From: Methylomonas methanica
GTDB taxonomy: Bacteria > Pseudomonadota > Gammaproteobacteria > Methylococcales > Methylomonadaceae
Direction: 5' to 3'
Length of the DNA stretch: 64,000 nt
NCBI GenBank assembly: GCA_001644045.1
Contig: LUUF01000078.1
Coordinates: 1-64,000, forward strand
In this document: piece by piece, positions 3,658-30,737 of the stretch
How the letters are laid out: each line of letters begins with the position of its first letter
How positions within the stretch are numbered: the first letter of the stretch is position 1
Position numbers and translations under genes: made by a program
The notes under the pieces: generated by a model
What the model was told of the DNA's origin: nothing
Seen by the model: the letters and a program-made list of their open reading frames with translations, nothing else
Database searches by the model: none

Positions 3658-4425
3658 AATTAAGCGGCTTGGTGCCGCAATTCGTAATTAATCGGTGACA
3701 GGTAGCCGTTAGCGGAATGTAACCGCTCCTGGTTGTAAAACACTTCGATATATTCGAACACCGCTTGTTTGGCCTGATCGCGGGTCTGGAAAGTCTGCTG
3801 GTGAATTAGCTTGTACCCACGGGGCATAAATGAAAGAAACTCTCCGAAACCGCATTGTCCCAGCAGTTGCCTTTTCGGCTCATGCTTTGTTGAATGCCGT
3901 GTTGTTTGAGCAAAGCCCTATGGCATTGTCTCGGCCATTGACCAGCCAACGATCTAACGGGAAAACAAGTCGATCACCACCGCCAAATACAACCAGCCTT
4001 CTTGAGTATGAATATAGGTAATATCGCCCGTATAGACCCGGTTTGCTTGATCAACAGCGAACTGCCGGTCCAGATGATTGGGCACGGTCGGTAGATCATG
4101 TTTGGAGTCCGTAGTGACGTTAAATCGGCGTTTGGTTTTAACAGGCCAAGCCCGCTTCTTTCATCAAGCGACCAATACGGCGTCGGCCCACCGCTTGACC
4201 TTGATGGGACAACGCCACTTTGAGTCGACGGGTGCCGTAAGTGTTACGGCTTTTTTCGAATGTCGTTTGCACCATACTGCTGAGCTGCTCATCTTCTCGT
4301 GCCCGTGATGAAGGGACGCGATGTAACCAGACATAGTAAGCGCTTTGAGAGACTTGTAAAAACCGACACATCGAAATCACGGTGAATTCCGGCGTATGTT
4401 GCTTGATCCAGGCGTACTTCTCGGC
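3658..4425 (-). pseudogene. IS3-family orfB (DDE integrase), fragmented
   Basis: The integrase starts at KYAWIKQHTPEF. It runs through RNTYGTRRLKVAL to EAGLAC, where one extra T near 4138 shifts the frame. It then continues in another frame through [17 protein letters not shown] and [10 protein letters not shown], the region with the first two catalytic Asp. An in-frame stop and a deletion remove the middle, and it resumes at the DDE-Glu region and the typical end FYNQERLHSANGYLSP. A 17-nt insertion at 3814-3830 interrupts this last part. Confidence 0.85.
3814..3830. repeat. 17-nt micro-insertion, copy 1
   Basis: TACCCACGGGGCATAAA interrupts orfB. Deleting exactly these 17 bases restores the minus-strand reading [14 protein letters not shown], as expected for this part of an IS3 integrase. 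Confidence 0.75.
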
Positions 4426-4428
4426 AAC

Positions 4429-4472
4429 CGCTCCTGCTGCGTTGCCCTACCTCCTGCATCCATGCAGTCGAC
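4429..4472. repeat. possible 44-nt insertion in the IS3 copy
   Basis: Between the orfA end and the orfB start lies an extra stretch containing the palindrome-like GCATCCATGC. Removing 44 bases joins CGGCAAC to CGTTGCTCC and brings the orfA end close to the orfB start. The normal spacing for this IS is not known to me, so this is tentative. Confidence 0.35.
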
Positions 4473-4490
4473 CGTTGCTCCTTGGCAAAG

Positions 4491-4507
4491 TACCCACAGG
4501 GCATAAA
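4491..4507. repeat. 17-nt micro-insertion, copy 2
   Basis: TACCCACAGGGCATAAA interrupts orfA. Deleting exactly 17 bases restores KAAAYFAKE on the minus strand. The following bases begin TAC like the insert itself, so the exact boundary could slide by three bases. Confidence 0.75.
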
Positions 4508-4524
4508 TACGCGGCGGCCTTTTT

Positions 4525-4541
4525 TACCCACAGGGCACAAG
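4525..4541. repeat. 17-nt micro-insertion, copy 3
   Basis: TACCCACAGGGCACAAG differs at two positions from copy 2. Deleting exactly 17 bases restores DPLKKA on the minus strand in orfA. Confidence 0.7.
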
Positions 4542-28257: not shown

Positions 28258-28273
28258 CAGCCGGTTTTTTGTG

Positions 28274-28300
28274 TCGTTCCCACGCTTCGCGTGGGAACGA
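28274..28300. repeat. REP-like palindrome B
   Basis: A 27-base hairpin, with arms TCGTTCCCACGC and GCGTGGGAACGA around a TTC loop. It lies 16 bases after the stop of the YkgJ-family gene, where it could act as a terminator between two convergent genes. Confidence 0.7.
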
Positions 28301-28307
28301 TGTAAGG

Positions 28308-28934
28308 CTATAGCTCAGCACTTGCTGTAAACCCAAACTGCGTCACGAGTACTGAAATTGGCTCAAATACGACTGTGAATCCGAATTTAGATTTCTCAAT
28401 AACGTGCGCATTGGCCCCAGCAGGAAGAACTTGGAATTCCAAGTGAGGAGTAATACGCATGGGGACCGAAAAAAGCACCCTGAAAGTATTTGCACCAAGA
28501 CCAAGAATCAACGGATTGCTCGGAAGATTAGTTGGTGTTGAAACGGGCATCAGGTTGGTGCTGAGGATTTCCAATACCTCAGATGCCAGTTGATATTTTT
28601 CCTCGTTGTCCTTGGATGAGCGAAATCGTTCCCAAGCTTCTGACGCGTGTTTCATCCCCTGATATTGCGCCAATACAGCGGAGAGTACTTCGTCTCGAGC
28701 ACCTGATGCCGCAAGCGACTGTTCGTAGCGGCGCAACGTTGCGAGAGTTGCTGTAACGTCCGGCAGTTGCTTAAGCGCGTTCTCGGTGTTTTGTTCAATT
28801 CTGTTCAGTTGAGCATCCGACTCCGATCTGGCCTTTAGGGTTTCGTAACCGCCAATCGCAACCACGATACCTGTAACGAGCGGCAATACCACGGTCATCA
28901 AGTAAGCCGCTGGATAAGTCGAGAATAGTTCCAT
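28308..28934 (-). CDS. hypothetical membrane-anchored coiled-coil protein
   Basis: A 208-residue protein with one N-terminal membrane helix (LMTVVLPLVTGIVVAIGGY), a helical charged middle with coiled-coil character and a beta-rich end. The AASGARDEVLSAVLAQYQGMKHA part is probably a long helix. I recognise no family. It is convergent with the YkgJ-type gene and does not look like part of the polyene cluster. Confidence 0.55.
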   Translation of the reverse strand: MELFSTYPAAYLMTVVLPLVTGIVVAIGGYETLKARSESDAQLNRIEQNTENALKQLPDVTATLATLRRYEQSLAASGARDEVLSAVLAQYQGMKHASEAWERFRSSKDNEEKYQLASEVLEILSTNLMPVSTPTNLPSNPLILGLGANTFRVLFSVPMRITPHLEFQVLPAGANAHVIEKSKFGFTVVFEPISVLVTQFGFTASAEL

Positions 28935-29024
28935 ACGTTCAGCCTTCTAACAAATAATTTGAGGTCTTCCGAATATCATCGTTCGTTACCGCAACTCTAG
29001 CAATAAACACGAGCAGTGGTATGG

Positions 29025-30455
29025 TTAAGATTCCAATAAAACTCTAATTTGATTGTAATCCAACTTCCCATTAGCCAATCGCGGTAAATCCTCTAAATCC
29101 AAATAACGACTCGGCTGCATGTAGGCCGGTAGTTGCCGGCTAAGCGTCTTGCGAATCTCTCCGATGGTCATGTCCGGTTCTAAAACCACCGCCAAGGCGG
29201 GACGCTGACCAGCGGTGGGGTCATCCATGCCGATCACGGCGCAGCCTTTGACACCGGGGATGGTGTTGACGACCGCCTCGATTTCCGCAGGTTCGACGCG
29301 GTAGCCGGAGCATTTCAGCATCCGTCCCAAGCGGCCATGAAAGCGGAATTCGCCTTGTTCCAGGCTGGCACGGTCGCCGGTAGCGTACCAGCCGTCAGCG
29401 TTGAAGAAAGGCTGCACGCGACCGTCGCTCCAGTAGCCGCTGGCTAGCGTCGGGCCGCGTACCCAGAGTTCGCCGGATTCGGCGTCGATTTGCAGTTCGC
29501 AACCAGCGGCGGGCAGGCCGATGGGGATGGTTTGCTCGGCGATTAAGCGTTCGCGCATCACAGGCCAATAACAGCAGACATTGGTTTCGGTGGGGCCGAA
29601 GAAATTGTACAAGGCCGTCTGCGGCAAGCTGGCGGCTAGGTCGATTAGGGCAGGGGTGGGAAACACTTCGCCGGCAAAGATTAAAAAGCGCAGGGCAGCT
29701 AGCCGTGTTTGCGCCAGGTTGCCTTTGTAGGTTAGGAAGGCCAATAGCGAGGGCACGGTGTACCAGCCGCTGATAGCCTGCTCGCTCAGCCACGCGCTTA
29801 AGCGGGCTGGGGCCATGGTCAAGCCGCTTGGGACGAAATGCAGGCTGGCGCCGGTGCCTAGCACTGCGTAAAGGTCGAAGGTAGATAGGTCGAAGAAAAA
29901 CGGCGCACTGCTAGCGATGCGGTCGGCCGGCGTTAAAGCCAGCAAGTCGGCGGCCCATAAGGCAAATGCCGAAATCGCACGATGGCTCAATGCCACGCCG
30001 CGCGGTTGGCCGGTGGAGCCGGAGGTATACAAAATCGCTGCCAGCGATTCGGCGGAGATTTCGACCGGTGCTGGAATGGCCTCGCTACAGCTGGCGATGT
30101 CGAGCCACAGGCTGTCATCCAGCCAAGCCGGCGCGCCCCCCCCCGATCCAATTACTACACGAACCCGAGCATCGGCGACGATAAAGCTCAGTCTGGCGAC
30201 TGGGTTTTTTAGGTCGAGCGGCACATAGCAAGCCCCGCTCAGCAGGACGCCGAATAATGCGCTAGCGGCGTCTATGCCACGATCCAGATGAATCGCCACC
30301 GGCTGGCCGGATTGGATGCCTTTGGCTTGCAACGCGGCGGCGATGAATTGGGCGCGTTGCAGTAATTGTCGATAGCTGATTTGCCTGTCTTGCTCTTGCA
30401 GGGCCAGGGCGTCAGGTTGCTGTTGGCATTGGTGTAGAAAAGGTGTCAGTAGCAT
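29025..30455 (-). CDS. stand-alone amino-acid adenylation protein (PltF-like)
   Basis: This 476-residue NRPS-type A domain contains LYTSGSTGQPRGVALSH, FFFDLSTFDLYAVLG, LIFAGEVFPTPALI, YNFFGPTETNVC, YATGDRAS and a C-terminal Lys in ANGKLDYNQ. The last Lys indicates full adenylation and thiolation activity. The pattern with FAGE.FP and FGPTETNVC is that of free-standing amino-acid:carrier-protein ligases such as the prolyl ligases PltF and CloN4. The partner carrier protein is probably the one two genes upstream. Which amino acid is used cannot be read by eye. Confidence 0.78.
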   Translation of the reverse strand: MLLTPFLHQCQQQPDALALQEQDRQISYRQLLQRAQFIAAALQAKGIQSGQPVAIHLDRGIDAASALFGVLLSGACYVPLDLKNPVARLSFIVADARVRVVIGSGGGAPAWLDDSLWLDIASCSEAIPAPVEISAESLAAILYTSGSTGQPRGVALSHRAISAFALWAADLLALTPADRIASSAPFFFDLSTFDLYAVLGTGASLHFVPSGLTMAPARLSAWLSEQAISGWYTVPSLLAFLTYKGNLAQTRLAALRFLIFAGEVFPTPALIDLAASLPQTALYNFFGPTETNVCCYWPVMRERLIAEQTIPIGLPAAGCELQIDAESGELWVRGPTLASGYWSDGRVQPFFNADGWYATGDRASLEQGEFRFHGRLGRMLKCSGYRVEPAEIEAVVNTIPGVKGCAVIGMDDPTAGQRPALAVVLEPDMTIGEIRKTLSRQLPAYMQPSRYLDLEDLPRLANGKLDYNQIRVLLES

Positions 30456-30737
30456 GAGCTAAAAATAATTGTCCAACTGGAGATTCCCTCTCCCCCTGTA
30501 CCCATGGGGCATAAAGGAGAGGATTGGGGTGAGGGAGGGAGATAAATAAGGAAAAAGCTTTATTTTAATCCCCTCATCCCAACCTTCTCCCGGTGGGAGA
30601 AGGAGATTTTTTAATTTTTAGCGATCCCCTTAAAATCGGCATAACCAGTAGGATCGAATTTATTCGATGTAGCCAACAGTGCGAATAAATTCGCACCTAC
30701 AGTTTTAGCTTAACGGCGCAGCGGCGATGTTCGTCGC
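30456..30737. repeat. repeat-rich intergenic spacer
   Basis: The 280 bases between the adenylation and the condensation-like gene hold three dispersed repeats. One is CCCTCTCCC...GGAGAGG with GGGGTGAGGG, carrying the 17-nt insertion; a second, inverted relative is around 30570-30605 (CCCCTCATCCCAACC, CTCCCGGTGGGAGAAGG). The third is a hairpin GTGCGAATAAATTCGCAC near 30690. No gene is visible. Confidence 0.65.
30499..30515. repeat. 17-nt micro-insertion, copy 4
   Basis: TACCCATGGGGCATAAA sits inside a dispersed repeat. Deleting exactly 17 bases joins CCCTCTCCCCCTG to GGAGAGGATTGGGG, a normal form of that repeat. The insert matches copy 1 of the IS3 region at 16 of 17 positions. Confidence 0.7.

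Follow-up and report, generated by a model that had tools for sequence, protein, structure and literature searches.

A 17-nt sequence interrupts unrelated DNA at four places in a 64,000-nt stretch of the Methylomonas methanica genome (contig LUUF01000078.1, positions 1 to 64,000; hereafter the window), three of them within a single IS3-family insertion sequence (IS) and the fourth at the tip of a palindrome resembling the repetitive extragenic palindromic (REP) sequences of bacteria. Comparison with related loci shows that many bacteria carry this sequence, in their transposase genes and REP-like palindromes, as a precise insert of 16-18 nt that leaves no target duplication, and that its copies decay in place and multiply when the repeat that carries them multiplies. 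We regard it as nearly certain that the inserts are real and precise, and probable that they represent a mobile element of the same kind as small dispersed repeats. Taken together, and leaving the class of enzyme aside, the claim that these precise inserts are mobile, a mobility that we infer to be driven in trans by an enzyme supplied by the host or by another element, has in our estimate a probability of roughly 60%.

Filled and empty sites reveal precise insertion

The original prediction, based on the window by itself, held that four copies of the sequence are present and that each was gained as a unit of exactly 17 nt. All four were recovered, against 0.49 matches expected by chance at up to three mismatches, and none of 100 shuffled sequences reached four. 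The exact 17-nt insertion proposed for the three IS3 sites is borne out by an alignment of related IS3 elements, in which relatives show gaps of exactly this length. At site 4491 the window and seven further distinct loci (L168, L032, L290, L173, L219, L221 and L158) have the insert, and four loci (L288, L289, L292 and L293) lack exactly these 17 nt. Only L032 shares the insert of the window at site 4525, the other loci that clearly cover this position being empty, and at site 3814 only L002 does, with all the rest empty. Removal of 17 nt at the fourth copy (site 30499) regains a CCCTCTCC..GGAGAGG palindrome, and empty orthologous spacers exist, in agreement with its description as an insertion into a dispersed repeat.

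The same kind of comparison was extended to 256 non-tandem sites, a count that excludes tandem sites and supersedes an earlier figure of 66 out of 285, which took in tandem and same-locus cases. An ungapped empty homologue was found for 52 of them, with inserts of 17 nt in 47 and 16 nt in 5, and 13 of these 52 pairs are at least 90% identical; the other 204 sites had no empty homologue among the loci compared, beyond which the search was not extended. No target duplication was seen in the empty-site alignments, where the gain is 16-17 nt only, with the proviso that where a T follows the insert a 1-nt duplication of T looks the same as an insert that begins with T.

Copies are gained at several places and decay

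The spacer orthologous to that of site 30499 was compared in 11 cases, the window included. The element is intact in three, decayed but recognisable by eye in two (G011 and G028) and absent in six, and the filled and decayed copies are not always in the same repeat: the intact copy lies in one REP in the window and in the left arm (G025) or the right arm (G031) of another REP pair. As different REPs and arms are filled and decayed copies occur in this one spacer, the element was gained at several places and then decays. Within the genes of REP-associated tyrosine transposases (RAYTs, also called TnpA-REP), the position DW^P (T^GG) is filled in L008, L250, L172, L111, L157, L191 and L193. On a tree in which some sequences are partial and some branches long, these occupy separate branches with empty relatives between them (L255, L256 and L265, for example), an interleaving that implies either repeated insertion or repeated exact loss at the same position.

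The element has a fixed core and a free loop

The element consists of TACCC, a free loop of 2 to 4 nt and GGGCAYAAR, and its tail defines two subfamilies, CATAAA and CACAAG. The core originally given as CCCATGGGG is corrected accordingly to TACCC..GGGCA with a free middle, a hairpin-like, imperfect inverted repeat around about 3 free bases with a stem of 3-5 bp. A loop of 3 nt is the rule (274 sites); loops of 2 and of 4 nt were found in 6 sites each, loops of 0, 1 or 5 to 12 nt in none, and the reversed control gave 0. Across 154 non-redundant strict sites the middle triplet is ACA in 98, AAA in 18, GCA in 14, ATA in 8 and something else in the rest, and the tail is CATAAA in 137, CACAAG in 14 and intermediate in 3, all these counts being biased towards the forms that served as search patterns. 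The same patterns fixed the stem, so that compensatory stem changes could not show. Tests of the middle triplet against the flanks, of which there were many, gave marginal values only. Several one-mismatch places of a relaxed search (including L040, L041, L043 and L044) look like chance; these fail the strict pattern used for the anatomy, target and empty-site counts but enter the looser sets used for site grouping and reading-frame tests.

Head-to-tail arrays of the element occur, often with differing middles. One RAYT gene (L191, minus-strand position 1670) contains a 16-nt form whose loop is 2 nt; the frame there stays open and a short peptide precedes WQRRFW. A related form, CACCC-TTC-GGGTATAAA, was seen inside another palindrome (L053, minus-strand position 1678, and L146, position 3046), and the genome with this form also has long tandem arrays of the 17-mer.

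Copies recur within the genus and beyond it

The original prediction looked to the rest of the genome and to its relatives for further copies, and these were found. The genome of the window (5.02 Mb in 115 contigs) holds 29 matches within two mismatches, compared with 2 in the reversed control, and some few of the 29 may be chance. Among 61 genomes, this one included, 31 have a match within one mismatch, with 3 control matches, and the highest count (18) is that of the window genome. In a sample of the family, exact matches occur in 50 of 151 genomes and 13 of 29 genera, 486 matches by our own sum against 3 in the control, while a sample of the class has the exact ACA form in 4 of 369 genomes. 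Among the matches listed, named records with the exact ACA form include many from Methylococcales, Endozoicomonas, Geobacter and Geobacteraceae, as well as the Spirochaetota bin Nl494_bin20 and the gammaproteobacterium RBG_16_51_14, bins being metagenomic and possibly mis-sorted. Fifteen genomes chosen for having matches carry 1 to 36 exact matches each, with 0 in the controls. Viral contigs, searched for the ACA form only, gave 0 exact matches, and isolated distant matches (e.g. Synechococcus) were put aside as possible chance.

In each of three Lachnospiraceae records (L071 at 2090, L107 and L153), two gene leaders contain the 17-mer, exactly or nearly, between GGG and CCC arms. No Rfam family was found at the 17-mer matches of L071 and L153 at the gathering threshold, and the case may be an unrelated conserved leader.

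Inserts favor transposase genes and palindromic repeats

The 304 matches for which flanks were available form 205 site groups, many of which lie in unrelated IS families. Pfam was run on 20 coding-looking fragments adjoining inserts, chosen from 100 site groups in or near the genus. IS or transposase families were recognized in 17 of them, three (L250, L035 and L033) under the curated cut-off; of the others, L007 had no Pfam match and L228 and L254 are host genes in which the insert precedes the conserved part and probably the gene itself. In none of these 20 fragments is the insert clearly within a non-transposase gene. By Pfam name or by eye, the carriers comprise IS3, IS21 (both genes), IS66 (two genes), Mutator-type (IS256), several DDE_Tnp_1 types and RAYT, with IS30 and IS630 identified by eye, and two or three copies are carried by the window IS3, L006, L008 and L216. 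REP-like palindromes account for many other site groups. A few copies lie in other intergenic DNA, and one unique intergenic place common to three species (L170, L242 and L251) may be a chance match. The earlier view that non-essential DNA accumulates copies is thus too general, since those examined in the genus are found mainly in transposase genes and palindromic repeats.

Target preference was read from 71 sites (the genus plus L030 from another family), 29 of them with a listed REP motif and 42 without. At the 42 non-REP sites, mostly in transposase genes, the first base after the insert is T in 38 and the second G or A in 39, a rule abbreviated here as TR. Strong inverted repeats (arm of at least 7) occur at 20% of 154 sites and 8% of nearby control positions. 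A hairpin as the target was considered and set aside, the effect being only weak at sites that lack a strong palindrome.

An insert of 17 nt shifts the frame of a transposase gene. For 24 sites with assigned orientation and phase, 13 are sense (6, 4 and 3 in phases 0, 1 and 2) and 11 antisense (0, 3 and 8), and a reading-frame rule or translational bypass was rejected for want of a consistent phase. Several interrupted frames are otherwise open when read across the insert, for instance over 458 and 377 aa and, with two inserts, 427 aa. Between IS pairs that share a filled site, the ratio of nonsynonymous to synonymous change (pN/pS) in the transposase frame ranges from 0.03 to 0.45, mostly about 0.1-0.25 (L194/L195, 0.18 with 13 synonymous and 8 other changes; L033/L221, 0.19 with 69.5 and 42.5; L032/L003 the highest, 0.45), and spurious alternative frames gave higher ratios in the same comparison. 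Since the differences are mainly synonymous, these frames were under selection until recently, or still are.

A single-strand transposase as candidate enzyme

We prefer, tentatively, a mechanism in which an HuH transposase (Y1 or TnpA-REP-like) would cut and join single-stranded DNA; that such an enzyme is responsible is itself doubtful. Written on the other strand the element is 5'-..YA/TTTATGCCC-loop-GGGTA/, a short palindrome preceded by a tetranucleotide, with the proposed cuts (slashes) after YA at the target and after TA at the element's own end. A new copy could enter beside an old one and so build head-to-tail arrays. This scheme fits an element that has a free loop, duplicates no target bases, follows the YA rule and forms arrays. 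TnpA-REP enzymes are reported to cut REPs as single strands next to the hairpin; the cut falls at CT and, for one enzyme, at CA as well, and a REP of this kind has a stem of 5 bp and a loop of 4 nt (PMC8266576).

Several observations weigh against the reading that we favor. No enzyme was found, so the unknown machinery of the original prediction stands as such, and by eye RAYT gene counts do not track copy number. A replication-strand bias, to be expected if insertion followed the lagging strand as in IS200/IS605, was not seen (28 vs 20 in ten genomes, p = 0.31, for 48 of 49 listed matches, one on the second contig of G002 being dropped, with the dnaA gene taken as origin and the opposite point as terminus, and with G024 and G031 left out for their several contigs); a hand tally in genome G526 likewise gave 23 vs 27, and later movement of carrier repeats could blur such a bias. 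On its own the hairpin is weak (-1.2 and -1.3 kcal/mol, z about -1.5), a guide prediction for the two subfamilies gave p = 0.26, and the element is without the GTAG of REPs. The 29 REP sites follow another rule than TR, with G as second base in 24 and a varied first base. The RAYT pattern could reflect repeated exact loss. In G526, finally, which has 50 copies, 25 of the 30 that were read lie in one REP family, so that copy number overstates fresh insertion. The boldest form of the proposal, a 16-18-nt unit moved in trans by an HuH transposase, common to at least three phyla and recurrently disrupting transposase genes as a brake on larger mobile elements, we consider unlikely.

Alternative explanations

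The most serious competitor to a mobile element, though we judge it improbable, is that a few old inserts in REPs and ISs were multiplied by REP and IS transposition and spread by gene conversion or recombination, with no continuing insertion. The copies do lie in repeated DNA, with one position and orientation per REP family among grouped sites, and the diverged IS3 elements share a neighbourhood repeat of about 50 nt; in 21 of the 25 G526 copies of one REP family a second copy stands directly before (13 strict, 8 loose), from which we conclude that this burst is mainly REP spread. Multiplication of old inserts nevertheless sits poorly with the number of site groups and their unrelated IS families, with the filling of different arms of one REP pair in different species, and with filled RAYT genes interleaved with empty close relatives. 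The original proposal of mobile or templated addition holds insofar as a small sequence is added, recurs here and in relatives and leaves clean empty sites, while part of its copy number is owed to carriage on spreading REPs. A lesser likelihood attaches to the copying of a small RNA into target DNA by a reverse transcriptase, as has been suggested for cyanobacterial small dispersed repeats. The fixed sequence and two linked subfamilies look template-copied, but RVT_1, the only polymerase family searched, has 0 matches in the window genome with its 18 copies and in G036 and G016 (7 and 8 copies), whereas G032 has 14 RVT_1 matches and 0 copies; reverse transcriptase was rejected as a required enzyme on these grounds and reverse transcription is disfavored, although the enzyme may have been lost since.

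Two further accounts concern the transposase genes, and we hold both very unlikely. If the ribosome skipped the 17 nt or the RNA lost them, the transposase would remain functional and its carriers would keep spreading, as the otherwise open frames and low pN/pS might suggest; yet insertion after divergence also predicts low pN/pS, both orientations and several phases occur, and REP copies are untranslated. A host or rival element might instead insert the cassette purposely to silence transposase genes and REPs, which would fit the 17 of 20 coding fragments and the two inserts in otherwise open frames of some elements (L216 and L008), but selection against inserts in host genes would yield much of the same picture, and no guide or system turned up, no search having been aimed at one. 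Still more remote is the footprint of an excised transposon, with two ends joined across a 3-nt gap. The core does form an imperfect inverted repeat, but tandem arrays are hard to account for in this way and GGGCATAAA is accompanied by the left half in 274 cases and lacks it in 30 (13 of these like decayed copies), against 0-24 for shuffled 9-mers, in loci partly collected for carrying the element rather than in whole genomes; half elements of a larger transposon were accordingly dismissed, there being no clear excess. Some isolated matches in distant taxa are to be expected in 257 Gb, and a few within the genus, as the control for the 61 genomes indicates, but near-zero controls and copies common to orthologous loci of separate genomes, decaying in place, leave chance or assembly artefact a negligible share.

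The window and its neighbouring features

Coordinates of the four copies and of the repeats around them are collected below.

Location of the 17-mer copies, their carriers and empty repeats in the window
Feature	Position	Strand	Remarks
17-mer copy 1, TACCC-ACG-GGGCATAAA	3814..3830	+	lies antisense within IS3 orfB; empty homologues lack exactly 17 nt
17-mer copy 2, TACCC-ACA-GGGCATAAA	4491..4507	+	close to the end of IS3 orfA (AAAY^FAKE)
17-mer copy 3, CACAAG subfamily	4525..4541	+	adjoins A-rich run of orfA; filled in L032 too
17-mer copy 4, TACCC-ATG-GGGCATAAA	30499..30515	+	tip of REP-like palindrome
IS3-family element holding three 17-mer copies	3640..4860 (approximate limits)	-	
REP-like repeat split by 17-mer copy 4	30486..30535	+	same repeat found elsewhere in the genus
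Nearby REP copy like the one above but lacking the 17-mer (empty form)	30570..30605	-	seen directly
Empty copy of another REP family	30679..30696	.	family carries the 17-mer in its tip in genome G526

The repeat of about 50 nt mentioned above (window positions 4420-4470) adjoins copy 2 within the IS3 element. It is dispersed across many genomes of the genus and recurs at the corresponding position of other, diverged IS3 elements (L286 and L173). At 3480-3640, a gene whose start looks by eye like that of a PAS-type sensor is apparently interrupted by the IS3 element.

Implications

Should mobility be confirmed, this sequence would rank with the smallest DNA units that are known to spread, and the combination of fixed core and free loop could be used in looking for the enzyme. 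How so small a piece moves can be tested directly on pairs of filled and empty sites. Frameshifting of transposases may shape which mobile elements stay active, and a 17-mer insert can pass for a sequencing error or a pseudogene in annotation.

Comparison with known systems

A literature search, with most subscription papers outside its reach, found no description of this 17-mer or of such an element. REPs or REPINs with their TnpA-REP (RAYT) enzymes resemble it as short dispersed palindromes possibly moved in trans, and our element is located in REPs and RAYT genes; the cut at a dinucleotide beside the hairpin, described for TnpA-REP in PMC8266576, is also what we propose here. It differs in having TTTA or CTTG rather than GTAG at the tetranucleotide position and a 3-5 bp stem, in being shorter overall than the 20-50 nt given for REPs (PMC8266576), and in entering coding sequence instead of being mostly intergenic, with 42 of the 71 genus-level sites outside REP motifs. 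With IS200/IS605 elements it shares a hairpin, the lack of target duplication and perhaps a short target motif, but it has no internal transposase, one hairpin only and no replication-strand bias that we could see, and its target is weakly defined (TR at non-REP sites, a second-place G at REP sites) compared with their short fixed target. Like miniature inverted-repeat transposable elements it is non-autonomous, short and palindromic, although far smaller and without terminal repeats around an interior or target duplication.

The nearest known kind is that of the small dispersed repeats (SDRs) of cyanobacteria, and the original remark that no named element of this type came to mind was in this respect not quite right. 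SDRs of Nostoc and its relatives are reportedly 21-27 nt long, and are said to look mobile and hairpin-like and often to be nested in other repeats or mini-transposons. Our element is likewise a sequence of about 20 nt dispersed in many contexts (16-18 nt in 205 site groups) and shows signs of recent mobility in its clean empty sites. These cyanobacterial repeats (Elhai et al. 2008) are cited in PMC3116915. The two are set apart by description rather than by sequence: the 17-mer occurs in Gammaproteobacteria, Geobacter and a Spirochaetota bin rather than cyanobacteria, is shorter than the range reported for SDRs, and is often a precise insert in transposase genes.

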